Of a DNA stretch of 25,619 bases, positions 18 through 22,937 are shown piece by piece. Position 1 is the stretch's first letter; each line of letters opens with the position of its first letter. The stretch spans positions 1 through 25,619 of IMG/VR virus record IMGVR_UViG_3300021378_000143; one strand, given 5' to 3'. The stretch is from a virus. The notes beneath the pieces are model-generated. The model was not told where the DNA came from. It worked only from the letters and a program-made list of their open reading frames with translations, and ran no database searches. A program made the position numbers and the translations under genes.

Positions 18-1046
18 ATGGTAGAGTTCTTAAATAGATACGTAGCATTAGGAAAAGAAAGCGCAAGCGCATACGGCACAGAAGTAGCCCCAACTACTTT
101 TGGAGAAGTTGATGATGAATCATTCGCAACAAGAATGGATTTACTTACAAGACAAGATATGAGTAGGGCAATTGTTGGTAAATCAGTAACAGGCAAAGAA
201 TATTCAGAAGGAGGCTATAATATGGCCGTTCAACTAGATGAGTTTTTAGGTAATACCTTAGCGGCATTTTTCCCAAAAGCAACTTTTGCTAATAGCATTC
301 ATACATTTAAAGAGCCTGCGGTAGCGGCAGATGAGTATGATTCCTTTACTATTGACGTAGGAAGAGAAGAGAAAATACACACTTACACAGGTATGGTAGC
401 AAATACCTTATCACTAACAGCATCCGTAGGAGAATACGTTATGATGAGTGCTGATTTCGTAGGTTGTAGAGAAAAAGCAACACAAGCCGCTATTTCAGAC
501 ACAGCAATTGTTTTTGAGGGAGACGCATTAGACGCTCTTTACTTTTCTAACGGAACAGTATTGTTTGACGATGGAACAGGTGATGCACCGGCGGCATCAG
601 CAAGTGTTAAATCAATTGATTTCCAAATTAGCCTTAACCCCGATACAGATAACGCTATGGCTTTAGGAGACAGCACATACAGCAGCAAACCAAAAATGCA
701 GCGTAGAGAAGTTACAGGAACAGTAGAGTTTAACAAAGTACTTTATGGCGACCAAGCATTAGACGAGCCGGATTACACATCTTTAGTAACATCAAAAGGT
801 CTTGCATATAATGACGGTACTAACCCTGTTATGACACTACATTTTACAGAAGAAGATACACCTGCGGATAATTACATAAAGTTTAACTTTTACAATATTC
901 GTTGGGAAACGCCTACTTCTAACGTAAGTGGAAGAGATTCACAAACAATGTCTGTTGGTTTCGTAGCACTATATGATAACAACAAAGGTTGTATGGACAT
1001 TACAGCAAAAGGCGGCGCATTAGGCTCTACTGCCTTCCCGCTATGA
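18..1046 (+). CDS. Major tail tube protein
   Basis: A 342 aa protein with the general layout of siphovirus tail tube proteins. The N terminus is a short extended segment (LNRYVALGKESASAYGTE) of the kind that opens phage tail tube proteins, followed by beta-rich sequence with little charge clustering and no membrane segment. Subunits would stack as rings around the tape measure protein to form the channel for DNA. Position supports this: it is followed by a small gene, a two-frame tail assembly chaperone and the tape measure gene, the standard siphovirus order. The ATG at 18 has an AGAGG Shine-Dalgarno match 7 bases upstream. The assignment rests on gene order and general sequence character, not on a diagnostic motif. 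A minor structural protein of similar fold is the main alternative. Confidence 0.75.
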   Translation: MVEFLNRYVALGKESASAYGTEVAPTTFGEVDDESFATRMDLLTRQDMSRAIVGKSVTGKEYSEGGYNMAVQLDEFLGNTLAAFFPKATFANSIHTFKEPAVAADEYDSFTIDVGREEKIHTYTGMVANTLSLTASVGEYVMMSADFVGCREKATQAAISDTAIVFEGDALDALYFSNGTVLFDDGTGDAPAASASVKSIDFQISLNPDTDNAMALGDSTYSSKPKMQRREVTGTVEFNKVLYGDQALDEPDYTSLVTSKGLAYNDGTNPVMTLHFTEEDTPADNYIKFNFYNIRWETPTSNVSGRDSQTMSVGFVALYDNNKGCMDITAKGGALGSTAFPL

Positions 1047-1056
1047 GGTGTTTAAC

Positions 1057-1242
1057 TTGAAAGATTTCATTAAATCATTAGGTAGGGAAATACCTGCTGA
1101 ACAGATGGAGAGTATTATTGCTATCGGTAATAAATTAAGGATAAAAAAATACTGCCGAAGATTTCCTTTGGCGACAAAACCCACACCTAAAATTACTAAA
1201 GCAAAAGTTATTGTTCCCGTAAAAATAGACGAAGAAGAGTAA
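1057..1242 (+). CDS. Small protein between tail tube and tail chaperone genes, unknown function
   Basis: A 61 aa reading from TTG at 1057, or 64 aa from GTG at 1048. I prefer TTG 1057 because GAGGTG at 1045-1050 is a strong Shine-Dalgarno sequence with 6 bases of spacing, whereas the GTG lies inside that sequence and has no site of its own. The GAGG overlaps the TGA stop of the tail tube gene, so translation is probably coupled. The N-terminal half is an amphipathic helix-like stretch, the middle is strongly basic (around RIKKYCRRF), then comes a proline/lysine-rich extended part and a DEEE acidic end. I do not recognise a family. Its place between tail tube and tail chaperone suggests a minor tail or completion protein. 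Confidence 0.55.
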   Translation: MKDFIKSLGREIPAEQMESIIAIGNKLRIKKYCRRFPLATKPTPKITKAKVIVPVKIDEEE

Positions 1243-1251
1243 TTCTTTATT

Positions 1252-1265
1252 AAAGGAATACCTTT
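1252..1265 (+). other. Short inverted repeat in the gap before the tail chaperone gene
   Basis: AAAGG-AATA-CCTTT forms a 5 bp stem with a 4 base loop in the 57 base gap 1243-1299. It overlaps an AT-rich CTTTATTAAAG stretch that could be a weak TATA-like element for the downstream gene. It is too small to call a terminator or operator with confidence. Confidence 0.25.
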
Positions 1266-1299
1266 TACATAGTATTAGCGAGAGCGAGAGTGTGGTATT

Positions 1300-1641
1300 A
1301 TGCCGGTAATGAAGAAAGAAATAGAATTAGAAGATGGAACAAAGATTTGGGTTAGGCAAGTTTCCGGTATGGAAAAACTAGCAATTACTAATGCGCAAGG
1401 AAAAGCATTTAGAAAAATGCGTCATGCGGGTGAAGTAGAAAATTGGACAGACGAACAAAACGAAGAGTTTGCTAATTATATTGATGAATATGGGGCAGGC
1501 ATTCAAAAACAAATTGAAGAGTGGATTCCTAATTGTATATTAGATGAAGAAATAGACATAAATATTTTAACTTCGGAAGAGTTAATGAATATATTATCCT
1601 TTGTAAGAGGGGATGAAAAGGATGGCGCTATCCCTTTATAG
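1300..1641 (+). CDS. Tail assembly chaperone, short form (gpG-like)
   Basis: A 113 aa acidic, helical, cytosolic protein. The C-terminal half carries a TSEELMNILSFVRG segment of the kind that ends the first frame of many phage tail assembly chaperones. It lies between tail tube and tape measure genes, where lambda-like phages encode gpG and gpGT, which coat the tape measure protein before the tube assembles. The frame ends in TAG at 1639-1641, and the codons just before it (CCT TTA) form a slippery heptamer with the preceding C. The -1 frame then stays open to 1946, so this ORF should also give a longer G-T-like fusion of about 215 aa. The ATG at 1300 follows a weak GAGAGTGTGG purine stretch. 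Function is inferred from position, length and frameshift layout. Confidence 0.72.
   Translation: MPVMKKEIELEDGTKIWVRQVSGMEKLAITNAQGKAFRKMRHAGEVENWTDEQNEEFANYIDEYGAGIQKQIEEWIPNCILDEEIDINILTSEELMNILSFVRGDEKDGAIPL
1632..1638 (+). promoter_or_regulatory. Programmed -1 ribosomal frameshift slippery site CCCTTTA
   Basis: C CCT TTA fits the canonical X XXY YYZ slippery heptamer in the zero frame and is followed directly by the TAG stop at 1639-1641. After a -1 slip the two tRNAs re-pair on CCC and TTT, and decoding continues with ATA GAT TTT into a frame open to the TAA at 1944-1946. The -1 frame is closed upstream by TGA at 1614-1616, so the shift must occur in 1617-1638, and this is the only good slippery heptamer there. 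A stem-loop lies 16 bases downstream. Confidence 0.72.
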
Positions 1642-1946
1642 ATTTTATTAGAGTAGCCCCCTCTCTATGTATGGCCTTCAAGGGGGTTTTACCCTCAGAT
1701 TTATGGTTAAAATATAATGTAGAAGGCGGTAAGCATTTAATGGACTTAGACCTTCTTATAGCGGCTAATATTAATGATAGTATAAATGAAGCAACTACAA
1801 AAGCAAAGAGTAAAGACGCTAAAGGTGCAGTCGCTAGACGCGACCAAAGAAGGGAAAAACGCAAACTATTAAACAACAACAATGACCTACTCGATATATT
1901 GAGAGATAGCGGAGTGCCTGTTGAGGGCAAGAGTAGTGATGATTAA
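1635..1946 (+). CDS. Tail assembly chaperone, frameshift extension (gpT-like part of a G-T fusion)
   Basis: This -1 frame continuation adds about 102 residues to the upstream 113 aa. The segment before its first ATG (1671) reads as normal protein (YPFIDFIRVAPSLCMAF), which argues that it is translated from upstream and does not start at 1671. That ATG has no Shine-Dalgarno sequence, only CCCCCTCTCT before it. The middle (PSDLWLKYNVEGGKH) is followed by a basic, probably helical part with RRDQRREKRK and an acidic end. In lambda-like phages the T part binds the tape measure protein, whose gene begins 2 bases after this stop. A separate gene starting at 1671 is the less likely alternative. Confidence 0.68.
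   Translation, partial: FIDFIRVAPSLCMAFKGVLPSDLWLKYNVEGGKHLMDLDLLIAANINDSINEATTKAKSKDAKGAVARRDQRREKRKLLNNNNDLLDILRDSGVPVEGKSSDD
1655..1688 (+). promoter_or_regulatory. Stem-loop downstream of the frameshift site
   Basis: Bases 1655-1662 (AGCCCCCT) can pair with 1681-1688 (AGGGGGTT): 8 bp with one G-U pair and five G-C pairs, closing an 18 base loop. It starts 16 bases after the slippery heptamer, farther than the usual 5-9 bases, so a stimulatory role is possible but unproven. A competing small hairpin (GGG/CCC at about 1684-1694) could form instead. Confidence 0.4.
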
Positions 1947-1948
1947 AT

Positions 1949-4900
1949 ATGATTGATGCAACAATTCTTCCTTTTTTCACAGGTCTATTTCCAATAATAT
2001 GCGCTATTACTTTACTAGTTTTACGTGCCGGTGCGTCTAGGGTTTTCTTCGACATCGTAGGTACTTTCCAAGCAGGAAGATTAATTCAAGATGCGCAAGC
2101 AGCACAAACAGTTTTTGAGTCTTTATACTTAGATACTTTTATGGGTATTCAAGAAGCAGGTCAAGAAATAGGTGAAATGTTTACCAATGTAGTAGAAGAA
2201 ATAATGCCTCTTACCGAAGAAATAGAAGAAGCAAGAATACAATTAGAAAAGTTTTTAGATGTTCCTACTGATGAAATGGATGAGGTAGCCCAAAGTATAA
2301 CCGACATAGGTCTTGCTCTTGGTTTTGCTTCTGATGAGGCTATGTTAGCAGGTGCTAAAATGGCTCAATTGAGTGGTGTTTTAGGGGCATCTACTATGGA
2401 TGTGGGTACAGAAATAGGTATGATGTTTGGTCTAATAAGTGGTATGGAAACTGACGCAGCCATGCAAAGATTAATTAACTTACAACAACAAACTAAGTTT
2501 ATGACTAAAAATATCGAAGAAGGTATGAATGCCGAAGAACAGGCTAATATAATACGTAGAGATTCTATAAGGATATTAAATCAACTTAACACGGTTGAAA
2601 ACAGGTCGGTTGCTACGATGGAACAGATTACTTTCGTTATGAATCAATTCGCATCACAGGCTGATTTGACTAACGAAAGCATAGCAAGTATGGCTGCCTT
2701 ATCCGCTACTCTTATTGAGGCGGGTGAAGAACAAGGTAAGGGCGGTCGTGCTTTGCGTATGATGTATGCTAGGCTTGGTGCTGATATTAACGGCTCAAGA
2801 AAAGCGGTTGAAGATTTAGGGATAGCCGTAGCAGATTCAGAAGGAAATATGCGACCTTTGTCAAGGGTGTTATCAGATTTGTCGGTTGAGTATCAAAAAA
2901 TGAATGGTGAACAACAGACTGCTTTGGCTCAACAAGTAGCGGGTAATAGACACTATACCCGTCTTATTAAATTACTTGAAAACGTGGATAGGGTAAAGGA
3001 GTTGGAGTTTGAAGCAACAATTGCTATGTTCCCTGCTATGGATGAAATAGATAGAAGAAGAGATACAGAATTATTTAAGTTACAAAAAGCGGAAGCGGCT
3101 TATAAAAATGTAGCCGGTTCAATAGGTGATAATTTATTACCTGCTTTAACAAAAGCAACAGAAGCACAAACTGTATTTTTAAAACAAATAGAACAATTGT
3201 CGCAAAATAAGTTTTTTGGTTTTGCTATCAATTCTATCGTTACCTTTACGAAACTATCACAAAGTTTTGTTGGGCCTGCTCTTGGTATAATAATGGCTTT
3301 ACAAAATATGAATATTGCTTTAAAAACACAAGCAGCAATTACAAGAGCGTTGAATGGTGAAAAAATAGCCGGTATGGAACATACTAAAGAAGGTCTTGTT
3401 TTAATGACAAATGAGATTGCTTTACAAAAAGAATTAAATAGAAGAAATCAAGAAGAAGCATTAATAACAGAAAGAAAAAGAAGGCAAGAGTCAACAAAAG
3501 GTAAAGGTTTAGGAACAAGAAATGTAAACTACGCTAGGACTAGGTCTAAAAATCTGGAAAAACTCAGAAAAACCGAACTTGCCGGTCTAAAAGAAATAAG
3601 TAGAGAACAAGCAAAATTAATTTATTTAGAGGAAAGACATAGAGATGCAAAATTATCTCTTGGTACTAGTAGGAAAAAAATTGATGTAGAGGCTAGAGCG
3701 TTTCATGCAAAAAGACAAGAAGAAATACAAAAAGAAATAGATAATACTTATTTAAAGAAAGATATTATTCTCGCAAATGCCGCAGAAATATCAGCAAGAA
3801 AACAAGTTTATGATGATGTAGTAGCCGAAGCAAAAGATAGAGAATTAAGAAAAGAAGTAATGCTACAAGAAGCAGTAGAGATGGGTACTAAACAACAGGC
3901 TAAACGTATGCAGACAATAACAATGGGAATAGCCGCATTGGGTTCATCCTTTATGATGTTTAATGTTCCATTTATGAAACAACAGACGGAAATGAGAATA
4001 GGTATGACGTTGACTAGTGGGGCTATGGCTTACCAAACAGGTAAAATGATGTATAACTCAATAATTTCAGTAAAACAAATGTTTGTTAAGAGGGCGTTAA
4101 CTAAGGCATTTATACAAGAGGCGGCCGCAATAGGTCTTACTAATACGCAGATAATAGCGCATCTTGAAGCAAATAATGTTAAAAATGCTTCACAATTAGT
4201 AGGTATTGCTACTACCGAAGTATATAGTGCTGCTCATATAAAATTAGCAAAGGCCATAGGTATTTCTAATGCTGCATTAAAGAAAAGTATTATTGGTATT
4301 ACAGCAGTTGTCGCAATTATGGCCGGATGGTGGGTTTTTGATAAATGGACTGAAAAAGCCAAAAAAGCAGCAGATGAACAAGAAAGATTTAATAGCATTT
4401 CTTTAGATACAGGTAGAGTTTTAGAAATAATGAAAGACGGTACTATGGATGTAGAATCTGAAATACAAAAATTAACTAAAGAATTAAACGGATTAGATGA
4501 TACGCAAGATAAAATGTCGCAAGCAAGAATAACGGCAATAGAAAGTGAAATAGCGGCATTGATGCAAGTTAGAAGAATTACTAATTTCCAAAATACTGAT
4601 ATGAAAGAAAATATGGAAGCATCTAAAAAATATTTTGATGATTTAAAAATGTATGAAAGTATAAACAAAGGCATAACTAGTGATGGACATAACTTTTTTA
4701 GTATGGGAACAGTAGATACTATTAATAACTCTAATACAAGATTCTTAAATCAACTCGGAAATATTTTCCGAATAAATGACAAAGAGTTTAAGGGTTACGG
4801 TGCTTTTGCGACAGCAACAGATGATGTTAGGGAGTTTAGAGAAGAATATTCAGATTTAGTTGCGTTTATAGAATTACATAAAATTACAACCTATGAAGAA

Positions 4901-5245
4901 TTAGAAACTACTGCTGAATCATATAAGACAAGCATAAATGAATTAATGGGTGTGGAAGCAGAAGGTGTAAGTAATTTGGCGCAAGAATATTCAGTTTTAA
5001 ACGATGAATTACAAGGCTTTGCTAATACTAGAGAAGAAATGTTCTATGGTTTTGATAGAAATAATTTGACAGGAGACTTGGTTAGACAGGTTACTCAACA
5101 AGGAGTTGAAACATTAGTTACTACTACCGAAGTTATAATGACAAATAACTTTAATGGTATGACCGTACCACAGGTAGCAGACATGATTATAGAAGAGATA
5201 GAGGGAAGAGGAAACCTAAGAGGTTACAATCTCTCAACAACGTAG
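1949..5245 (+). CDS. Tail tape measure protein
   Basis: A 1098 aa protein with the make-up of phage tape measure proteins: long helical stretches rich in Ala, Gln, Glu, Met and Lys, with scattered hydrophobic segments. Residues about 225-345 resemble the conserved core of the phage minor tail/tape measure family (SMAALSATLIEAGEEQGKGG, then RALRMMYARL, then QQTALAQQVAGNRHYTRLIKL). Residues about 468-658 are highly charged and likely coiled coil. Hydrophobic segments occur near residues 5-26, about 655-675 and about 781-800 (GITAVVAIMAGWWVF). Such proteins set tail length and can contact the host membrane during DNA entry. At roughly 0.15 nm per residue the tail would be about 160 nm, which is an inference. 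The start lies 2 bases after the chaperone stop with only a weak ribosome site, so re-initiation is likely. Confidence 0.88.
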   Translation: MIDATILPFFTGLFPIICAITLLVLRAGASRVFFDIVGTFQAGRLIQDAQAAQTVFESLYLDTFMGIQEAGQEIGEMFTNVVEEIMPLTEEIEEARIQLEKFLDVPTDEMDEVAQSITDIGLALGFASDEAMLAGAKMAQLSGVLGASTMDVGTEIGMMFGLISGMETDAAMQRLINLQQQTKFMTKNIEEGMNAEEQANIIRRDSIRILNQLNTVENRSVATMEQITFVMNQFASQADLTNESIASMAALSATLIEAGEEQGKGGRALRMMYARLGADINGSRKAVEDLGIAVADSEGNMRPLSRVLSDLSVEYQKMNGEQQTALAQQVAGNRHYTRLIKLLENVDRVKELEFEATIAMFPAMDEIDRRRDTELFKLQKAEAAYKNVAGSIGDNLLPALTKATEAQTVFLKQIEQLSQNKFFGFAINSIVTFTKLSQSFVGPALGIIMALQNMNIALKTQAAITRALNGEKIAGMEHTKEGLVLMTNEIALQKELNRRNQEEALITERKRRQESTKGKGLGTRNVNYARTRSKNLEKLRKTELAGLKEISREQAKLIYLEERHRDAKLSLGTSRKKIDVEARAFHAKRQEEIQKEIDNTYLKKDIILANAAEISARKQVYDDVVAEAKDRELRKEVMLQEAVEMGTKQQAKRMQTITMGIAALGSSFMMFNVPFMKQQTEMRIGMTLTSGAMAYQTGKMMYNSIISVKQMFVKRALTKAFIQEAAAIGLTNTQIIAHLEANNVKNASQLVGIATTEVYSAAHIKLAKAIGISNAALKKSIIGITAVVAIMAGWWVFDKWTEKAKKAADEQERFNSISLDTGRVLEIMKDGTMDVESEIQKLTKELNGLDDTQDKMSQARITAIESEIAALMQVRRITNFQNTDMKENMEASKKYFDDLKMYESINKGITSDGHNFFSMGTVDTINNSNTRFLNQLGNIFRINDKEFKGYGAFATATDDVREFREEYSDLVAFIELHKITTYEELETTAESYKTSINELMGVEAEGVSNLAQEYSVLNDELQGFANTREEMFYGFDRNNLTGDLVRQVTQQGVETLVTTTEVIMTNNFNGMTVPQVADMIIEEIEGRGNLRGYNLSTT

Positions 5246-5253
5246 GTGAGAGC

Positions 5254-8200
5254 ATGGTAAGAACAGTATCGAAAAAATATCAGATATGGATAGCAGGTTA
5301 TTACGATGATTTTAACGGCGCTAGGGCTATTCCCGATAACCTACAACAACCTTCCGATACATCATACGCAGTAACGGTAAGTCATTTTGGAAATCCTATG
5401 AACGGCGAGGCTTCTCTCAACCCTCGTTATCGTTGGTCTATTGTAGAAAGGGCAAAAAAAACTAACTACGATACTACACTTTTAGGTACAAACGACGTAA
5501 ATCAATATTTACGTAACAACGGAGTTTTTGAGTGGCTAAGTTTAGACACCAAAAGAAATAACGCATCAGATTGGGAGGGTAGAATACAATTACAATATCC
5601 CGATGGACACGTTGCTAACAGGTATAGATTTGGCGGTAGTACATCCGAAGGAAATGTAGGTTATCAAAGATTTGTAAACGGACATGACACTAGTGGGTCT
5701 TACATAGTATCTGTCGGTGATAATGACGCAACATTTGGTAGAGCAGATATGAAAAGATTTACGGCTACAAACTACGCAGCAGAAAACGCAGGATTTATTT
5801 CTACCACAGGAAACTTCGTACAAAGAGCGCATCTTACAGGCTCTTGGATGGGAGAAAAAATAACGCAAAGCACAGCCGAATACAATGACATTACTACCTC
5901 TCCACCTAAAGTATTTGCCGAAGTTACTTCCCCTTCAAAACAACCTTTTTTATGTGTTCAAACAGTTAGAAAACACATTGATAATGACTCTCCTAATGTA
6001 CCAACTATTATATATGATGGTAAATTAAACTCGCGCTTAGATAGGGATGTTTTTACTACTAGACTAGCATTAAGAAGTTTTATTGCAGAAGGTTCTACCC
6101 AATGGGATGAAGTAGGTATAAAGTTTGAGATAGGTTTTCCTAGCCCTACATCTACTTTATTAACATCTGATGCAGGTCATTCCGGTACACCGGAAATAGA
6201 TTATACTTTAGACTTAAGTAATACTTTTTCGGGAATAATAAATGCGTATGATTCTTATGGTCTTTTGTATGATGGCTCTAATTTACAATCATATAGTAAT
6301 GATGATGCTTGGTTAGATATTGATTTTGTAATGAAATACTCAACAGGTAAATACGATGTTTATGTTAATGGTACTAGGGTTGTACTAAACGGCTCTCTCG
6401 CTAGTGGTACAGGAGTTGACCCATCAGATATGTATGGGTGGCAAATGACTGTCAATAGCCAAGAAACAACAGACGGTAATTTTGGTTACGTATCATATTT
6501 AATGTTAGACCGAGTAGGTATGGTAAGGTATCTTACTAATGATATAACTACTACCGAAGAAGTACAAATTAATAACGCACAACTTAGTAAAAGTAATAAC
6601 GGTATTAGTGTTTTTAAGGTAAATATATCCGATGACCCAAAAAGATTTAATGGTTCTACGGGTACTAACACTAGTGATTACATAGAAAATATAACTTCTT
6701 TATTTACTAACAGTACTCCTTTAGATTGGCAAGTTTTATTTTTTGCTGATATTGACAGTAGAATAGATAGACCTATTTGGAGGGGGGAAATAGATAACTT
6801 TAAAATAAACCAACAAGGGAGAAAAAGAGATTTAAGTTTTACCGCAAAAGATTCTTTATCGTTTTTAGATAGACAAGTACCACTTTGGGAAATAGGTCAA
6901 GAGTCTTTAGATACCGAAATATCAGAAACCCCTTATTGGTTGTATGACGCTCAAGGGTTTCAAGAAATAATGAATCTAGGGGCTACAAAATTAAAACTTA
7001 CAGGTAGTGATGTTGGGTTTGATAGTGATAGTAGTTATTTAGAAACGTCAACACAAAGAACGCAACAAAACTCCGGTTTGCCTATACAAATGTATAATAA
7101 TGAAAACACAGTATATGGCCCAAATAATATCGAAGATAATTATGAGGGTATAAATATTTTAGGTTTTCAAAAAGATACTTCCGGCAATACTTTAGTGTAT
7201 TTAAATAGTAGCACTCATACTATAACAACATCAACAGCAGTTACTATAAAAAGCACAAATCATAATGCTACTAACATTACACCAACAGCAGTTAGTGGTG
7301 CTACCTTAACTTTTGCTTCCGGTGATTTGGCTTTTTCTGCTGAAACTGCTAAAATAATATATATCGGAAAACACCAAAGTGCTTTACCCGATTATGATAG
7401 AAGAATTAATTTTAGTGGACTTAGTGCTGCGGGAGTACAAGCACAAATGGCTAGTGCTTGGGCTAATTGGAATAGTCATCGGCCTGTATATAGTGATTTA
7501 ACACCTCATAATGGGCCTTGGTATATGAATGTATATTATGATGCAGACCCGTCTTTAGAAGTTGGTGATTATTTTTACATTAATAAAGAGGCTATGGATA
7601 ATACAACAGCACTTAACTCCGCATATTTAAATAGACATAAAGTGAAAAGCGTACATAAAATTATGGGTTATTTTAACAACTATAATAGTACCGTAACTTC
7701 TGTTGGGTCTTGGTCGGCAACACCTGTTTGGGTAGTACAAACTTTTACAGAATACCCATCATCATTAGCGGAACATGGATTATATTCTCCCGAAACTACG
7801 TTAGCAAATGCCGCTTCTTCGGGCGCATCTAGTTTAGTTTTAACAGATGCTAGTTTATTTTCTACTAGTGGTACAGGTAGATTAGGAACAGCAAATAGCG
7901 CAGCAACAAATAATACTTTTACATGGACAGGAAAAAGTAGTAACACTTTAACAGGCGTTAGTGGTGTTTCCACTAATTTTGCAGCAGGAAGTTCTGTATT
8001 TGATGCCGTAGCCGAACAAGACTCATTACTCACTAACAACGACAGATTTGAATGGTCTAAAGATAGTGGTACTGTACCCAACGCTTTTGTAACAACTAAT
8101 GGATTGCCGTTATTAAACAGGGCTATACACGCACGATGGATGAGAGATTTACCTAACTCATTATGGTTTAGGTATCAGTTTGGTAAAATAGGTGAATTAC

Positions 8201-11200
8201 AAATAGGTAGTAATTATGATAATCAATTAGTACTAGACACTTCTGTAACCCCCTCAACTAAAATAATAGAAATAAGTTCTACTGCTTATTCTAATGCCCC
8301 TAGTAGTGGGGTAGCGGAAATATGGGATAATAGTACTTTTATGCCTAATAGAAATGTTGATGCGTTTAAAGGTAAGTTTGTTTATGAAGGTAAAATAAAT
8401 ACCAATAGTAAATATTATCTAATAGGGTGTAAATACATAAACTTTAAAATGAGTGGTTCGGGTCATAAAATTAAGTTTCAAAATATAAGTGATGACTATA
8501 AACACCTTTGGTTACTTTGGGCTGACATGAGAAACAATGGTTTAGCAGACGCAGATGGTTCACAAAGAAAACAATCATTTGGTTTACAATACCCACTAGA
8601 AGATAACTATGATATACAAATGTACTACGCAGACCAATTTGATGAAAATGGTAATGTAGATACTTTTGGTAGTTTAGAGGTAAATAAAGATATAAATATA
8701 TGGAATCTTGATACTACTACTGAACCAATTACAAACAAACCCTTTTCCAAACCTGTAAATTATTCTGACCCTAAAAACTTAGCAATCACAAATCCTATAC
8801 AGAATGACGGAAACGGAAAACTAAGAATTAACAGCGCATCAACACCAATTACAGGATTTGCTAATGGTGATTTAGTTTACTTAGTAGGTACTGCATCTCA
8901 CGATGGCTACCATACTATAACAGATACACAAAGCGGATATTTAGTTACGTCTACTGCCTTTTCTAGTGCTACTATGTCTATTACAGGCGGTAGTAATTCT
9001 AAAGGTTATTTTTACACAACAACAGGAAGTGAACAAGACTTTTCACACTATCACGATTGGGAAGATAAGGGGGGTGCTTTATTAATTATAGACTCTTCTC
9101 CTTTCTTTAACCTTAATACTCACACAAATGGGGGTAGAACAGGACAGGCTTCCGGTTTAGGTACTGATTTAGGAGATTACGTACAAGTAAGACAGGGTTT
9201 CCCTGCACTAATAGATAATTATTGGGCGGAAGCAATCTCTTCATATCAAACAACAGGAGATATTGCAGGTGAACATCCGGCTCAATATAGATTATTGTCG
9301 GATGCTACCCTAGCAAACGAAGGATTTATAAAAGGTGATAAAGGAATACCTGTTGATGATGTAAGTAAGTTTGATGACACGGGGGTAGGTAAATTAATTA
9401 CTGTTTTCCCAAATAAAAAAGATACTTTTTACTTTGTTTGGAATAATAAATTAGGCACAAAATACACTTCTCCATCTTCGGTAGATTCAATAACATCAAT
9501 AACAGACGGAACAAAAATTACAAATGCTAGTGCAGGTCATGTTACTGCCGGATTAAAAAACGGTATGTTAATTAAAAAAATAACAGGTGGTGTGTATACA
9601 AGAGAATATATTATAGATGTAGTTGACGAAGAAAATCTAAACGTAAGTGGTACATGGGCTGCCGGAGATACATACGAAGTACCTATACAATTAGGTAAAA
9701 TATTTATGATAGAAGAAGATAATATAAGCGTAAGCGCAGAAACGGACTTAACATCTTTAGAACAGGCTATTTGGGATGCACATTCAGCAACCGGCCAAAC
9801 TTGGGATGATTACGGAATTATTACTGATTATGATTTAACAGATGATAGTACTACACCCGACTCTTACGAAGTTCATGCTACTGTCCACAGCCAATTTATG
9901 TTGCGTTTGTTAATGCACGTAAGAGGTGACATAAAAAACAAAAATAGTGGTACTTTTTGGGAAAGCGATAAGTTTAGAACATTATGGAATGCTGCAATTA
10001 TGGACACTTGGTTGCCACCAACAACAGTAAAATCAATTTACGATATTAATAATATACCTATAACTTCTACGATGACTACTTACAATTCTATTAATAATAA
10101 TGATGGTTATGGGTCAATAGTAGACAGTAGGGGAAAAACATTTTTAAGTACTATAAAAACAATTAAGACAAATAGTGGCATAGGCACAGAAAATAATAAT
10201 AACATATCTTTTTCTTATCTTATTGGTAGAGATAATAGATTAGAGTTTAGACCTAAGTATAATAGTAGTAAGAGTTTAACTAGAAGTAACATGAAAGTAA
10301 ATAATTTACAGACAACGTCTAGCGCCCAAATTACTAATGTTAGGGTATATTATAATAATGGTAAAAGTTTTGTTGATTATCCTAACCCAAATATGACAGA
10401 TACTACTAGATGGAAAATATTAGAACACCCTACCATAACTCAAAGTTTTGAAGCACAAGTTTTAGCAAAACAACAATATAACACATACAAAAATAGCCCA
10501 CTAAAAATAAATGTTGAGCCTATATTAGAACCACATGAAAAATACAAAATGATAGGTACGGGTAGGTATGGTTACATAGCAGATTCTTACGTTGCCTTAG
10601 AAGGTACAGATGATGACTATACTAAGGTATGTAATTGGAGTAGATTAGGTACAGGTGGGGCTTTGTTTAATGGTATGGTAAATGCTTTAGACGGCAACCA
10701 AAAAACATCTACTAATTTGTATTCAAGATATGGTATAAGCAAATCTCCCGCTACAAGTGGTGATATTCCTTGGGAAGATAACTATTATTGGTACGGTAGT
10801 GGGTCTATATCTAACGCCGTACAAATAGTGCATATACCCGATAACACACCATTTGTTAGCGACAATTATGGAGAGCCTATGCGTATGTGGGTAGACTTAA
10901 AAAGCACTCAAACAGGAACAGATATAGACAATGCTGAGTTCACTATACACGTAGCGGATTATTCTTTTGTCGGTGAAACTAGGGCAATTCACCCAACAAA
11001 CAAAAGTGCTGCAAGTGTAAATGTAAAACATAGTGGTTTTTATGAGTTGGCTTTACCTTCGACATATAGCGACACAAGCGTAGGTAATATGGTAGTTAGT
11101 TTTAACGCAGAATATTGTAGGGCTTTGTTGCGTCATAGATGTGGCAACCCTACTAGTGTAAATATTCTAAAAGTAGTTACAACAAATACAAACTCCATAT

Positions 11201-12315
11201 TTCCTCTAGGTATGAGAGAATATACTGAAATGGGTGGTTTCAAAACTACTAGAGCAGAATGGTATGCACCTAAAGTTTTGATAACAAGAGATGTTTCTTA
11301 CACCCCCGCTACTTACGTTTCGTTTACTGATTTAGGTTTAGGATTAACTTCTGAAAATCTAATTATACAAAAAGTAAATTGGAATATTTCTGCCGGTAGA
11401 ACAGAAGAAGTAAGTATGGATTTAGAGAGAGATGAGTCTATTGCTGTTAATGGCTTAATCTCTTCTCTCTTTCCCGAAGTTAACCAAAACTTACAAGTAG
11501 GTACTTCTCAATCTCAAGGCCAATCAACAGGCGTTAGTCAAGGGGTTTATGGACAAGGAGGTTATGTACCTATACCTACCAACCCACCTAATGAAGATAT
11601 AAACGATGACAACCAAAAAACAGAAGGTGGTAAAGAAGATGGTAGCGAAGAAGCAACGGCAAGTTTTTCTAAGAGGAAAAATACCCCATCATTAACTAAT
11701 AATAATAGAATGAATCTCGTAAGCGATATGTTATCGGGAGACTCTAGGTTTAGTATATTAGGCCAAACACCAATACCCCCAACCCCTTCGTCTATGAGAG
11801 GTATGAGTAGCATGAATGTAAGTGCAATAAGTGGTACTGCCTCAATGGTATCGGAAGGGTATGTTTTTGCGGGTGTGGGTTTACAAAACAGCGATAGTTC
11901 GTCAATTAAAAGTCAAGAAGTATCTATTCAAACATCATTTGTAGTACCTCAAGATGTATTAAGTAACAGGGTAAAAATAACTGCATCAGTTAGTCATGGT
12001 GAGTTTTTATCTAATACAGACTATGGTATATTATACATAGATGTACATTGTATAGAAAGTGGTAGTACTATAAGTAATACGGTAAATATAAGTAGAGGCA
12101 TAGATAGAAAAACAATTACCCTAATACCAACTACCCCACTAAAAGGACTCAATACTATTGGTAATAATATTAGGGTAACACTAACTAGAAAACCCAATAC
12201 AGGAAAAGATACAGCCAACGAGACATCTATAATACTACATAATTTGGATGTTAAAATGGAACGTGCTTCTGCACACACCTCTTCTTCTTCCGCTAAGTTT
12301 TCTACTCTCACTTGA
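5254..12315 (+). CDS. Giant tail tip / baseplate hub and adhesin protein
   Basis: A 2353 aa protein and the only gene after the tape measure on this strand. Residues about 205-430 look like a laminin-G/concanavalin-type beta sandwich (DIDFVMKYSTGKYDVYVNG). Residues about 430-550 resemble the first part of a gp27/gpD-type hub (WRGEIDNFKIN, then RKRDLSFTAKDSLSFLDRQ). A matching second part appears at about 1626-1710 (GRDNRLEFRP, NVRVYYNNGKSF) and ends near 2046-2061. Between them is about 1000 residues of inserted beta-rich domains, including SLVLTDASLFSTSGTG and TFTWTGKSSNTLTGVSG at about 855-910, a style common in phage tail adaptor and fibre proteins. Residues about 2075-2115 are a Gln/Gly/Ser/Pro linker, followed by a C-terminal domain to 2353. 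It would close the tail tip and probably bind the host surface. GAGAGC lies before the ATG, 8 bases after the tape measure stop. Confidence 0.75.
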   Translation: MVRTVSKKYQIWIAGYYDDFNGARAIPDNLQQPSDTSYAVTVSHFGNPMNGEASLNPRYRWSIVERAKKTNYDTTLLGTNDVNQYLRNNGVFEWLSLDTKRNNASDWEGRIQLQYPDGHVANRYRFGGSTSEGNVGYQRFVNGHDTSGSYIVSVGDNDATFGRADMKRFTATNYAAENAGFISTTGNFVQRAHLTGSWMGEKITQSTAEYNDITTSPPKVFAEVTSPSKQPFLCVQTVRKHIDNDSPNVPTIIYDGKLNSRLDRDVFTTRLALRSFIAEGSTQWDEVGIKFEIGFPSPTSTLLTSDAGHSGTPEIDYTLDLSNTFSGIINAYDSYGLLYDGSNLQSYSNDDAWLDIDFVMKYSTGKYDVYVNGTRVVLNGSLASGTGVDPSDMYGWQMTVNSQETTDGNFGYVSYLMLDRVGMVRYLTNDITTTEEVQINNAQLSKSNNGISVFKVNISDDPKRFNGSTGTNTSDYIENITSLFTNSTPLDWQVLFFADIDSRIDRPIWRGEIDNFKINQQGRKRDLSFTAKDSLSFLDRQVPLWEIGQESLDTEISETPYWLYDAQGFQEIMNLGATKLKLTGSDVGFDSDSSYLETSTQRTQQNSGLPIQMYNNENTVYGPNNIEDNYEGINILGFQKDTSGNTLVYLNSSTHTITTSTAVTIKSTNHNATNITPTAVSGATLTFASGDLAFSAETAKIIYIGKHQSALPDYDRRINFSGLSAAGVQAQMASAWANWNSHRPVYSDLTPHNGPWYMNVYYDADPSLEVGDYFYINKEAMDNTTALNSAYLNRHKVKSVHKIMGYFNNYNSTVTSVGSWSATPVWVVQTFTEYPSSLAEHGLYSPETTLANAASSGASSLVLTDASLFSTSGTGRLGTANSAATNNTFTWTGKSSNTLTGVSGVSTNFAAGSSVFDAVAEQDSLLTNNDRFEWSKDSGTVPNAFVTTNGLPLLNRAIHARWMRDLPNSLWFRYQFGKIGELQIGSNYDNQLVLDTSVTPSTKIIEISSTAYSNAPSSGVAEIWDNSTFMPNRNVDAFKGKFVYEGKINTNSKYYLIGCKYINFKMSGSGHKIKFQNISDDYKHLWLLWADMRNNGLADADGSQRKQSFGLQYPLEDNYDIQMYYADQFDENGNVDTFGSLEVNKDINIWNLDTTTEPITNKPFSKPVNYSDPKNLAITNPIQNDGNGKLRINSASTPITGFANGDLVYLVGTASHDGYHTITDTQSGYLVTSTAFSSATMSITGGSNSKGYFYTTTGSEQDFSHYHDWEDKGGALLIIDSSPFFNLNTHTNGGRTGQASGLGTDLGDYVQVRQGFPALIDNYWAEAISSYQTTGDIAGEHPAQYRLLSDATLANEGFIKGDKGIPVDDVSKFDDTGVGKLITVFPNKKDTFYFVWNNKLGTKYTSPSSVDSITSITDGTKITNASAGHVTAGLKNGMLIKKITGGVYTREYIIDVVDEENLNVSGTWAAGDTYEVPIQLGKIFMIEEDNISVSAETDLTSLEQAIWDAHSATGQTWDDYGIITDYDLTDDSTTPDSYEVHATVHSQFMLRLLMHVRGDIKNKNSGTFWESDKFRTLWNAAIMDTWLPPTTVKSIYDINNIPITSTMTTYNSINNNDGYGSIVDSRGKTFLSTIKTIKTNSGIGTENNNNISFSYLIGRDNRLEFRPKYNSSKSLTRSNMKVNNLQTTSSAQITNVRVYYNNGKSFVDYPNPNMTDTTRWKILEHPTITQSFEAQVLAKQQYNTYKNSPLKINVEPILEPHEKYKMIGTGRYGYIADSYVALEGTDDDYTKVCNWSRLGTGGALFNGMVNALDGNQKTSTNLYSRYGISKSPATSGDIPWEDNYYWYGSGSISNAVQIVHIPDNTPFVSDNYGEPMRMWVDLKSTQTGTDIDNAEFTIHVADYSFVGETRAIHPTNKSAASVNVKHSGFYELALPSTYSDTSVGNMVVSFNAEYCRALLRHRCGNPTSVNILKVVTTNTNSIFPLGMREYTEMGGFKTTRAEWYAPKVLITRDVSYTPATYVSFTDLGLGLTSENLIIQKVNWNISAGRTEEVSMDLERDESIAVNGLISSLFPEVNQNLQVGTSQSQGQSTGVSQGVYGQGGYVPIPTNPPNEDINDDNQKTEGGKEDGSEEATASFSKRKNTPSLTNNNRMNLVSDMLSGDSRFSILGQTPIPPTPSSMRGMSSMNVSAISGTASMVSEGYVFAGVGLQNSDSSSIKSQEVSIQTSFVVPQDVLSNRVKITASVSHGEFLSNTDYGILYIDVHCIESGSTISNTVNISRGIDRKTITLIPTTPLKGLNTIGNNIRVTLTRKPNTGKDTANETSIILHNLDVKMERASAHTSSSSAKFSTLT

Positions 12316-19925: not shown

Positions 19926-19934
19926 GTTATAAAC
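19926..19934 (-). promoter_or_regulatory. TATA-box promoter for the ATPase/PCNA/PolB unit
   Basis: On the - strand this reads GTTTATAAC inside AAAGTTTATAACCC. The TAA stop of the GroEL gene is part of the box. Its centre is 27 bases before the ATG at 19903. The preceding TGAAAG is a plausible TFB element. Confidence 0.6.
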
Positions 19935-21471
19935 TTTCAGTAAGTATCGCTGCATCAGTCATAAGAAGTAATGCCGCCACACTAACCGCAGATTCTAAAC
20001 TGTTAATTGTTACTTGTGCGGGGTCAATAACGCCATCATCAAATGCGTTTCTAACATCAGTAGTTTTACCGCAAATATATTGTTTGTATGTATGTATAGG
20101 TATCTCGCCCGTATCATTACCTGCGTTTTGTATTATTGTAGTTATGGGCGCTGACAAGCCAAGATTAAATAACTTTTTGATATGGAAATCAACATCTTCG
20201 GGATGTTGTGATATTTTCATTCTTGCGAAATATAGTGCTGAACCGCCACCTGCTACCACACCACCATTCATAGCCAAACGACAAGCGTTAACTGCATCAT
20301 CTACACGTTCTTTTCTTTCTAATTGTTCAACCTCAGATTTACCGCCTACATATATCTTAGATATACCATTAGTCAATCTTGATATACGATTGTTATAATA
20401 TTGTTGCATCCAATCATTAGTCGCTTCTTCTTCATAAGAAGCCAAAGAATCTAGGTGTTCGTTTAATTCATCAGACGATTCTCCACTCGCTGTAATTATA
20501 GTAGTCAAAGCAGAAGCCTGTATTTTATCACATGAGCCTACATCAAATGAAGTTAGTTTAGTGATAGATTCACCTAGAGAAGTCTTAAACAAATTACTCT
20601 TTGTAACCAACGCTATATCCTCTAACCATGCCTGTTGTTCATCCGGCATACCCGATGGCTTAACTAATAATGCACTTATCTTACCCTGTGCTATGTTGAC
20701 TAAAAGATTCTGTAACGCTTGATGATTAAAGTCGGTACAAAATATAGCAATAGGTTTGTTGTCTTTGACTGCTAACTCTAAAGCAGGTATCAAAGCATTG
20801 AACGTCTCAATCCTTTCGGTTGTTACTATAACCATAGGATTATCTAAGATACACCTAGCCTTCGGACTGTTTATCATAACATTATGTGCGTAGCCCGAAA
20901 GAACCTCTAACCCCTGCACATCTTCTGTGTATGTTTCAAAGGTAGGGCTTTTTTCTATCGTAATAGTACCCTTACTGCCTGTCTTATTGATAACGTCTGC
21001 TATCATTTTACCCAATACAGGGTCATTGTTAGCAGCAATAGTAGCCACATCTTCGATAGAGAAATCATCAGTCTTGATGTCGTTAAGATAATCTATTGTT
21101 TCTTCTAAGTAATAACCCAAAGCATCTCTTATAACAATAGGACTTACACCTTGTTCTATTAAGGTAAGAGAACCATTACACAAAGCCTGTGCTATAAGTG
21201 TAGCAGTAGTAGTACCGTCTCCCGACTTCTCCTGTGCTTCGCTAGCGACTTCTTTAAGTAAGTCTATACCCATTTGCACGTAAGGGTCTGCATCATTGAT
21301 AGCCCTAGCAACAGTAACACCGTCATTAAGAATGACGGGCATACCCGCAGGATTCTGTATAATAACCGTTCTTGCATTTACCCCTAAAGTACCCTTGACT
21401 GCGTTAGCAACCTTGTTCACACCTTTGAGTAATTTACTCTTTGCTTCCATTCCTGTTAATATTGTTTCCAT
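19927..21471 (-). CDS. groEL: Group I chaperonin GroEL
   Basis: A 514 aa protein (bacterial GroEL is about 548). It is clearly group I: KLLKGVNKVANAVKGTLG at residues 13-30, D50 in ILNDGVTVAR, the nucleotide loop GDGTTTAT with D85, RVDDA with D392 matching the ATP-hydrolysis Asp398 of E. coli GroEL, and GVVAGGGSAL soon after. The protein ends in LTESL without the Gly-Gly-Met tail found in bacterial GroEL. It would form rings that fold viral proteins, perhaps the very large tail-tip or capsid proteins. The GroES gene lies 9 bases upstream, and GAGGT is 7 bases before the ATG. A group I chaperonin among archaeal-type replication genes is notable, since archaeal hosts normally rely on the group II thermosome. 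Confidence 0.95.
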   Translation of the reverse strand: METILTGMEAKSKLLKGVNKVANAVKGTLGVNARTVIIQNPAGMPVILNDGVTVARAINDADPYVQMGIDLLKEVASEAQEKSGDGTTTATLIAQALCNGSLTLIEQGVSPIVIRDALGYYLEETIDYLNDIKTDDFSIEDVATIAANNDPVLGKMIADVINKTGSKGTITIEKSPTFETYTEDVQGLEVLSGYAHNVMINSPKARCILDNPMVIVTTERIETFNALIPALELAVKDNKPIAIFCTDFNHQALQNLLVNIAQGKISALLVKPSGMPDEQQAWLEDIALVTKSNLFKTSLGESITKLTSFDVGSCDKIQASALTTIITASGESSDELNEHLDSLASYEEEATNDWMQQYYNNRISRLTNGISKIYVGGKSEVEQLERKERVDDAVNACRLAMNGGVVAGGGSALYFARMKISQHPEDVDFHIKKLFNLGLSAPITTIIQNAGNDTGEIPIHTYKQYICGKTTDVRNAFDDGVIDPAQVTINSLESAVSVAALLLMTDAAILTESL

Positions 21472-21480
21472 AAAAATACC

Positions 21481-21771
21481 TCATATAAAATCGTCATGTA
21501 AATCTTGGTCGTAGTATTCTTCTCCACCTATGTAGTACGGTACTTCTTCACCGTCAAATGCTAAAAGGTCAGAATAATGTACACAAACCCTACCGTCATC
21601 CAATGTCATTTGTATCTTATCACCATTGAATAGTACGGTGTCTCCGCACCCTATTTCTAGGGGTACGAGAGAACCAATACTATCAACAACATATTCTTTT
21701 GCGGTAATAAGACCCGATGTACTGATTGTTTCAGCCATCTTTAGGATAACGTATTCTCCTACGGCCTTCAT
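21481..21771 (-). CDS. groES: GroES co-chaperonin
   Basis: 96 aa from ATG 21771. It has the GroES beta-barrel pattern: an N-terminal VGEYVILKMAE strand (as in DRVIVKRKE of bacterial GroES), a loop TISTSGLI in the place of the mobile loop, then EIGCGDTVLFNGDKIQMTLD and VHYSDLLAF near the end, as in GDIVIFND and SESDILAI. An acidic extension (YYDQDLHDDFI) follows the usual end. Seven copies would cap the GroEL ring encoded next. A GTG at 21780 would add three residues, but the ATG at 21771 overlaps the upstream stop in ATGA and has GGGTGG just upstream, so it is preferred. Confidence 0.88.
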   Translation of the reverse strand: MKAVGEYVILKMAETISTSGLITAKEYVVDSIGSLVPLEIGCGDTVLFNGDKIQMTLDDGRVCVHYSDLLAFDGEEVPYYIGGEEYYDQDLHDDFI

Positions 21772-22937
21772 TGTTCCCACCCGTCGTTTTCCACGACAGG
21801 CTCAACCATCTGAGGGATGATGTCGAAAGCATACCAACCATTAACTGATAGTCTATCTTCACCTTCTCTACTTCTCCAAGCCCCACCTAGTAGTAGCATC
21901 TTTGTTCCTACTGCAAAGTCAATTTCTTCATCACAATATACATCAACTGTACCTGCCATAGAAGTCATATCGGTATCAGCACAAACTAAAATATATCCAC
22001 CGTTGTCTCTTGGGTCTATGTGTATTACTTCTGTAATTACAGCACAATTTCTATCCCACCAACCGTCTTTACCGTTGTATGTGTCGTAGTATGTACCTAA
22101 GTGAGACAAACCTACTAATAGATTCTCTTCACCAATCAAACCACCGATAATGTCAGTAGGCGAACCATCGAAAAGGTTAGCCAAAGAAGCATCAACAGTA
22201 GGTACTGAAACGTCTGCGTTTAGGTAGCATCTATCATTGTTACCACCCTTCATAGGGATAGTTAATGGTGTAAAAGATGGGTATTGTCTATCAGCAGCAG
22301 CACCGTTACCACTTACTTTAAGTATTTTTAAGGAATCATTAGTACCTTGTTTTCGACCATAGAATAATGATGTTCTTTCTCTCTCATCTTGAGGTCGAGC
22401 CGCACCGTACTTGAAGTTAGCATCACCGGATGGGAATGTTGGGTTGTTCTTATCCCATACTACATAGAAGTGTGTGTTACCATCTAGTCTCATTGTGTGT
22501 TTTGGTAGAGTAGAAGTATCAGATTCAGTACCCATACCGAACATTTCTGCCGCTAGTCTTGTGTATGTACCGTCATTATTATCTTCAAAGACAACAACAG
22601 CCCCACTATCAATCAGTACTTGACGCACATCATCGGTAGCAGACATAAGTTGATTCTTCATCTTATTGTATAGTATTTTACCCCATTCTTTAGGTCGAGG
22701 AACAGAAATGAACATACCTTCAAAGATGTCTGAGCCGGTTCTTCGTAGTTTAGCAGATTCAGAAGAGATTTGTCGCCCTGCGACTCTTAGTGCAAGTACT
22801 GCACAATCTTCATCAGAACGGCCTGCGTTTTTCCACGCAGCACCCTGTTCTACAAGGACTTCATCAGCCCTCTTTTGCACCGCTTCGGGTGCGACATTCA
22901 GCGTTTTAGCAATATTTTCTAGCATCGGGTTAGTCAT
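21768..22937 (-). CDS. Putative OB-fold single-strand DNA-binding protein (RPA-like)
   Basis: A 389 aa soluble protein. Residues about 1-70 are helical (PEAVQKRADEVLVEQGAAW, then CAVLALRVAGRQ). The rest is beta-rich. The C-terminal part (about 315-380) reads like an OB fold: MAGTVDVYCDEEIDFAVGTK, then MLLLGGAWRSREGEDRLSV, then NGWYAFDI. A possible earlier OB-like region contains EGMFISVPRP near residue 73. It has no catalytic motif. In an otherwise complete archaeal replication set a single-strand binding protein is expected, and this is the best candidate. It is first behind a TATA element and is followed with overlap by GroES. GAGGT lies about 7 bases before the ATG. A capsid-related client of the chaperonin is an alternative. 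Confidence 0.5.
   Translation of the reverse strand: MTNPMLENIAKTLNVAPEAVQKRADEVLVEQGAAWKNAGRSDEDCAVLALRVAGRQISSESAKLRRTGSDIFEGMFISVPRPKEWGKILYNKMKNQLMSATDDVRQVLIDSGAVVVFEDNNDGTYTRLAAEMFGMGTESDTSTLPKHTMRLDGNTHFYVVWDKNNPTFPSGDANFKYGAARPQDERERTSLFYGRKQGTNDSLKILKVSGNGAAADRQYPSFTPLTIPMKGGNNDRCYLNADVSVPTVDASLANLFDGSPTDIIGGLIGEENLLVGLSHLGTYYDTYNGKDGWWDRNCAVITEVIHIDPRDNGGYILVCADTDMTSMAGTVDVYCDEEIDFAVGTKMLLLGGAWRSREGEDRLSVNGWYAFDIIPQMVEPVVENDGWEQ

Follow-up and report, generated by a model that had tools for sequence, protein, structure and literature searches.

Lambda (G/GT) and other double-stranded DNA phages use a -1 frameshift to make their tail assembly chaperones (PMC5009743). Among archaeal tailed viruses, a -1 frameshift has been predicted in the haloarchaeal viruses HVTV-1, HCTV-1, HCTV-2, HCTV-5, and Hardycor1 (PMC5009743, PMC8211752, PMC7911831), and the direction for HSTV-2 is given as +1. 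The Hardycor1 site is G GGA AAT (PMC7911831). According to a review, a single programmed -1 frameshift from archaea has been demonstrated by experiment, and the cases from archaeal viruses are sequence predictions (PMC8211752). Here we describe a locus at positions 1300-1946 of the IMG/VR virus record IMGVR_UViG_3300021378_000143 (25,619 bases; this whole stretch is "the window"). Judging from comparisons of sequences, the best explanation for this locus is very probably a programmed -1 frameshift in the gene from which an archaeal tailed virus makes its tail assembly chaperone.

The first frame encodes 113 amino acids and ends with C CCT TTA TAG (1632-1641). The -1 frame is closed by TGA at 1614-1616, is open from 1617 to 1943, and ends with TAA at 1944-1946; its earliest ATG is at 1671. 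Direct reading thus agrees with the initial annotation on both frames. The predicted fused product has 215 amino acids. As with lambda G/GT, the gene is between the major tail protein and the tape measure protein, the frames overlap with the second in -1, and a heptamer of the form X XXY YYZ lies near the end of the first frame; we presume that the fusion is made at a low level here too. The lambda slip site is G GGA AAG. The window differs in having C CCU UUN, a stop codon that abuts the heptamer, and a predicted pseudoknot that is supported by covariation, and searches with Pfam, PHROGs, and tblastn (the latter of phage records) found no sequence similarity to the lambda system.

The haloarchaeal viruses with a predicted -1 frameshift are also archaeal caudoviruses, with the same gene, the same direction, and predictions from sequence, but our case has C CCU UUN, a structured stimulator, and support from 77 loci. 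A C CCU UUA slip site with a downstream pseudoknot was proposed earlier for Giardiavirus and is disputed in PMC8230311. The heptamer is identical and a pseudoknot is predicted downstream in both, but Giardiavirus is an unrelated eukaryotic virus with a double-stranded RNA genome, and the gene there is capsid/polymerase. The alpha-L-fucosidase of Saccharolobus solfataricus, which shifts to -1 at about 10% in vitro (PMC8211752), similarly involves archaeal ribosomes and a heptamer, but it is a cellular gene with an A AAA AAT site, and the frameshift is missing from most homologs. Relative to the literature that we searched, the new aspects of our prediction are the magrovirus setting, C CCU UUN in a tail chaperone gene, and, for a frameshift from archaea, covariation of the RNA structure; -1 frameshifting had already been predicted for haloarchaeal tailed viruses. 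The initial annotation had described the evidence from archaeal tailed viruses as scarce, and in the literature searched we did not come across an experimental demonstration for any archaeal virus, but predicted precedents do exist.

To find relatives, we scanned IMG/VR with the first half alone and then with hidden Markov models from alignments of each half. A locus was counted if the models of both halves matched, and after removing duplicates there were 77 distinct loci. (Searches of the genome_contigs collection and, with tblastn, of named phage records found no homologs.) In every one of the 77, the second half lies in -1 register with respect to the first half. The distance from the heptamer to the stop is 0 nucleotides in 16 of the 77, and otherwise 3, 6, 9, 12, or 15 nucleotides. 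The 16 loci with a distance of 0 make up the window's clade (clade A), which comprises two neighboring groups on the protein tree. The sister clade (clade B) has 28 loci, and 49 loci are outside clade B. An alignment of homologs, as the initial annotation had suggested, therefore bears out the -1 frame and, for 66 of 77 loci, the heptamer, but not the adjacent stop; since the stop abuts the slip site in just 16 loci, we consider this a local trait of the window's clade, outside the core mechanism.

The canonical heptamers are CCCTTTG (33 loci), CCCTTTT (17), CCCTTTA (14), and AAATTTT (2), so 64 of the 66 are CCCTTTN. Outside clade B the heptamer is canonical in 49 of 49 loci (47 with C CCT TTA/G and 2 with A AAT TTT). 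The other 11 loci, all in clade B, have a broken X base: ACCTTTT (5), GCCTTTT (3), TCCTTTT, GCATTTT, and ACATTTT (1 each). The A-site codon is TTT in all 28 loci of clade B. In other long open reading frames of the same loci, the in-frame frequency per codon is 0.32% for XXXYYYZ (with X≠Y) and 0.0034% for CCCTTTN, and of 296 occurrences of x-Pro-Leu/Phe, only 4 are spelled C CCT TTN.

On the tree, clade B (tree length 3.7) accounts for 11 changes of the X base. The remainder of the tree (length 15.1) has one, and that sole change was a switch of the whole heptamer from CCCTTTN to AAATTTT. Over the same branches outside clade B, the amino acid preceding the slip changed 11 times, and the codons found there (ATC, GTC, ACC, CTC, GCC, and CCC) all retain the wobble C, at a usage of C-ending codons of merely 14% (Ile) or 10% (Val). 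If the X base changed at equal rates in the two parts of the tree, then the conditional binomial probability of this distribution would be about 2e-7, with the qualification that the split between clade B and the rest was chosen post hoc, with the data already seen. We suggest that selection maintains the P-site pair where re-pairing in the A site is imperfect (UUA or UUG to UUU), and that with a perfect UUU, re-pairing in the P site is partly dispensable. The freedom of the X base next to a fixed TTT in clade B would match the expectation from tandem slippage.

Could the second frame instead be a separate gene, translated by internal initiation or by termination and reinitiation at the overlapping stop? 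In most loci of clade B, codon +5 of the -1 frame is an ATG that overlaps the zero-frame stop (TGATG or TAATG), which could allow coupled reinitiation to give an extra product. However, loci of the window's clade offer no start codon (ATG, GTG, or TTG) from the opening of the -1 frame until codon +12, and 34 of the 77 loci have none of these ahead of codon +12. The ATG at codon +12, which is the first in the -1 frame of the window, is absent from several more distant loci, and 6 of the 77 have no ATG within the first 30 codons. As the initial annotation had reported for the window, this ATG has no ribosome site: we looked for a Shine-Dalgarno sequence ahead of the first ATG of the -1 frame in the 77 loci and found none. 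We therefore rejected a start or Shine-Dalgarno of its own for the -1 frame. The peptide just past the slip, [I/S][D/E]F[I/L]xVAPSLCMAFKG, precedes any ATG and is conserved across clades, so the protein-like sequence noticed in the initial annotation is found in relatives as well, and sequence comparison indicates purifying selection on the -1 peptide. Finally, the slip codons CCT TTT of clade B lack synonymous variation (the two loci with CAT encode a different amino acid). A separate gene is improbable given these results.

An error of sequencing or assembly, or a broken gene, might divide one ordinary reading frame in this way, and the split itself is what such an error would produce, but nothing more points to it. 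The 77 loci are from many metagenomes and share the -1 split with differing stop codons and with stop distances that vary from 0 to 15 nucleotides, which sequencing error cannot explain, so we give this idea practically no weight. Slippage of the RNA polymerase on a run of T or C, giving a fusion mRNA without any ribosomal shift, would be easier to imagine in L013, L014, L032, L183, and L184, which have six Ts. The runs in the window are merely CCC and TTT, and the conserved codon phase (X XXY YYZ) and the downstream RNA structure are hallmarks of ribosomal frameshifting; transcriptional slippage thus seems highly improbable. Hence we retain programmed ribosomal frameshifting, as the initial annotation had proposed.

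We also note that the ATG at codon +5 is present in L009, L013-L015, L017-L020, and other loci of clade B, and is missing from L033, L040, and L045. Where present, it could yield an additional, reinitiated T-like product.

Downstream of the slip site we predict an H-type pseudoknot that spans 1649-1688 and whose loop 1 is a single base (Table 1). The initial annotation had proposed a stem-loop at 1655-1688. The complementary arms are there (1655-1662 and 1681-1688), but we rejected a simple hairpin because helix S1 interleaves with those arms, which form helix S2 of the pseudoknot. Clade A has no synonymous changes at codons +3 to +11 or +15 to +19, and the loop codons +13 and +14 vary, which fits an H-type pseudoknot. 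When we resampled synonymous codons while keeping the protein sequence and the codon usage, the stability of the pseudoknot (by simple stacking energies, with no pseudoknot penalty) was reached in 0 of 100 resamplings for each of six sequences from clade A; the same test gave p = 0.00 for L190 and L191 and p = 0.01 for L192 and L126. RNAfold alone favors other, nested folds in most members of clade A, and the minimum free energies of nested folds there mostly fail to reach significance when compared with synonymous resamplings (p = 0.09-0.17, and 0.02 for L082).

Across 21 sequences (clade A and ten others that are more distantly related, a part of which was picked because the fold was present), 87% of cells are paired and double changes affect 6 of 13 pairs. 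The score for covariation is 0.240, versus 0.108 in shuffles (reached in 0 of 500) and at most 0.127 in slid registers. With all 41 sequences outside clade B, unselected, the score is 0.227, versus 0.143 when shuffled and at most 0.169 when slid. Clade B has a putative hairpin in its place, which starts four or five nucleotides past the heptamer. It is 90% paired, its covariation was reached in 0 of 500 shuffles, and it was recovered independently by RNAalifold. One of its pairs is G-C in 13 sequences and A-U in 10, and for this pair the independent contrasts agree in about 4 of 4 cases, which is too few for significance.

A single structure for all clades was not supported: in the set L098-L121 we found no clear common structure, and RNAalifold gave only a weak stem of 4 base pairs. 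We also considered a stimulator upstream of the slip site that resembles a Shine-Dalgarno sequence (AGAGGGGAT in the window), but it is not supported, as the Gly codon in it is free to vary among members of clade A. In L104, L116, L119, L120, and L121, an alternative long-range pairing of UCCGAG with CUCGGA, about 40 nucleotides apart, looks possible; it is located about 10-61 nucleotides past the heptamer, in place of the pseudoknot.

By its position between the genes for the tail tube and the tape measure, we identify this locus as a tail assembly chaperone of the lambda G/GT type. AlphaFold models the first half, with a pLDDT of 90, as a beta hairpin plus helices; the model of the second half is fair (pLDDT 81). 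In a Foldseek search of the PDB with the first half, the HK97 tail assembly chaperone (2ob9) ranks 3-4, as a weak match (low TM-scores, with E about 0.5). The weak matches in BFVD include several phage chaperones, and the only strong match there is a close relative. These fold matches are consistent with a tail assembly chaperone but are not conclusive. The second half matches an 85-amino-acid database entry that is stored as a separate protein, so the fusion seems to have been missed there. More broadly, the predicted fusion is overlooked wherever an annotation presents the gene as two proteins.

Several observations weigh against a frameshifted chaperone gene. Neither half has a match in Pfam or PHROGs, so the identification as a chaperone relies on gene order and on weak fold matches. 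Within clade A the pseudoknot does not vary, and its covariation depends on more distant loci; it is not kept in the large clade L106-L121; and it begins 10 nucleotides past the heptamer, beyond the usual 5-9. In clade B, 11 loci lack the X base, and in the two of them with CAT TTT, re-pairing in the P site is impossible. The initial annotation had named loss of the heptamer in close relatives as evidence against frameshifting. Formally, these 11 loci show such a loss, but frameshifting seems to persist in them in a relaxed form, because the A-site TTT is invariant, the -1 frame is conserved, and the covarying hairpin is present.

It is possible, although we lean slightly against it, that this gene family of archaeal viruses uses two modes of -1 frameshifting side by side. 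One would be tandem slippage on C CCU UUR, combined with a pseudoknot. The other, in clade B, would depend mainly on tRNA-Phe slipping on U UUU, combined with a hairpin; re-pairing in the P site would have become dispensable there, with the X base free to change and even CAU in the P site. If so, archaeal ribosomes would respond to swapped stimulators, and the slip sites of the family would amount to a set of mutants provided by nature.

We propose the following mechanism for the window. The majority of ribosomes would translate 1300-1638 and terminate at UAG, giving a G-like chaperone of 113 amino acids. A minority would be slowed by the pseudoknot and would move back by one base on C CCU UUA: the tRNA that reads CCU would re-pair with CCC, and the tRNA that reads UUA with UUU. 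These ribosomes would then read the -1 frame to 1946, giving the GT-like protein of 215 amino acids. By analogy to lambda, the G part would coat the tape measure protein, which is the product of the next gene, and the T part would recruit the tail tube protein. Slippage in the host and its efficiency, the roles of the proteins, and the identity of the host are what we infer; the register, the conservation of the slip site, the purifying selection on the -1 peptide, the covariation of the RNA structure, and the gene order come from the comparison itself. The prediction rests on the 77 loci, through selection acting on the slip site and through two alternative RNA structures that each show compensatory changes. 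The short cassettes could be used to ask whether archaeal ribosomes respond to pseudoknots.

The window encodes the tube protein, a small open reading frame, the chaperone, and the tape measure in that order on the plus strand, and tail genes occupy this strand from 18 to 12315 (Table 1).

Table 1. Coordinates of the chaperone locus, its predicted RNA elements, and other genes in the window.
Feature	Position	Strand	Evidence or comment
Major tail (tube) protein, upstream neighbor	18..1046	+	Pfam Phage_tube_2, E 1e-18; PHROG 290 (tail), E 2e-27
64-amino-acid open reading frame, between tube protein and chaperone	1048-1242	+	no match in Pfam or PHROG
Zero-frame product, putative G-like tail assembly chaperone, 113 amino acids, ends at TAG	1300..1641	+	open reading frame; 77 distinct relatives
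Slippery heptamer C CCU UUA (P-site CCU, A-site UUA)	1632..1638	+	sequence; kept in relatives
Zero-frame stop UAG, directly 3' of the heptamer	1639..1641	+	sequence
Predicted -1 frame extension (T-like domain), 102 amino acids past the slip	1638..1946	+	frame open from 1617
Predicted pseudoknot helix S1, 5' arm, UAGAG	1649..1653	+	
Predicted pseudoknot helix S2, 5' arm, AGCCCCCU	1655..1662	+	no synonymous changes in clade A
Predicted pseudoknot helix S1, 3' arm, CUCUA	1663..1667	+	
Predicted pseudoknot loop 3, thirteen bases	1668..1680	+	codons GCC/TTC (+13, +14) synonymously variable in relatives
Predicted pseudoknot helix S2, 3' arm, AGGGGGUU	1681..1688	+	no synonymous changes in clade A, codons +15 to +19
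Tape measure protein, downstream neighbor	1949..5245	+	Pfam PhageMin_Tail, E 1e-15; PHROG 28 (tape measure), E 5e-16
2353-amino-acid protein beyond the tape measure, perhaps tail tip or fiber	5254-12315	+	no match in Pfam
GroEL-like chaperonin	19927-21780	-	Pfam Cpn60_TCP1

The minus strand has replication genes, and on it we found PolB, an ERCC4 nuclease, an AAA ATPase that resembles clamp loaders, and a Cpn60 chaperonin; a PD-(D/E)XK nuclease was also found. PolB is nearest to the polymerases of haloarchaeal viruses (24% identity), and the capsid gene is outside the window. Opposed modules for replication and morphogenesis, together with PolB, ERCC4 nuclease, clamp loader, and GroEL/GroES, are the layout of Magrovirales (PMC10768690, PMC10160649, PMC12999244), and the window matches this order in module layout and gene content. 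The presumed hosts are Poseidoniales, so that the viruses concerned would infect abundant marine archaea. A genome map of Aoguangviridae marks a tail assembly chaperone, and we found no mention of a frameshift in magroviruses in the literature that we searched. Beside the Cpn60_TCP1 gene is an open reading frame of 99 amino acids with no match in Pfam, which could be GroES by position only.
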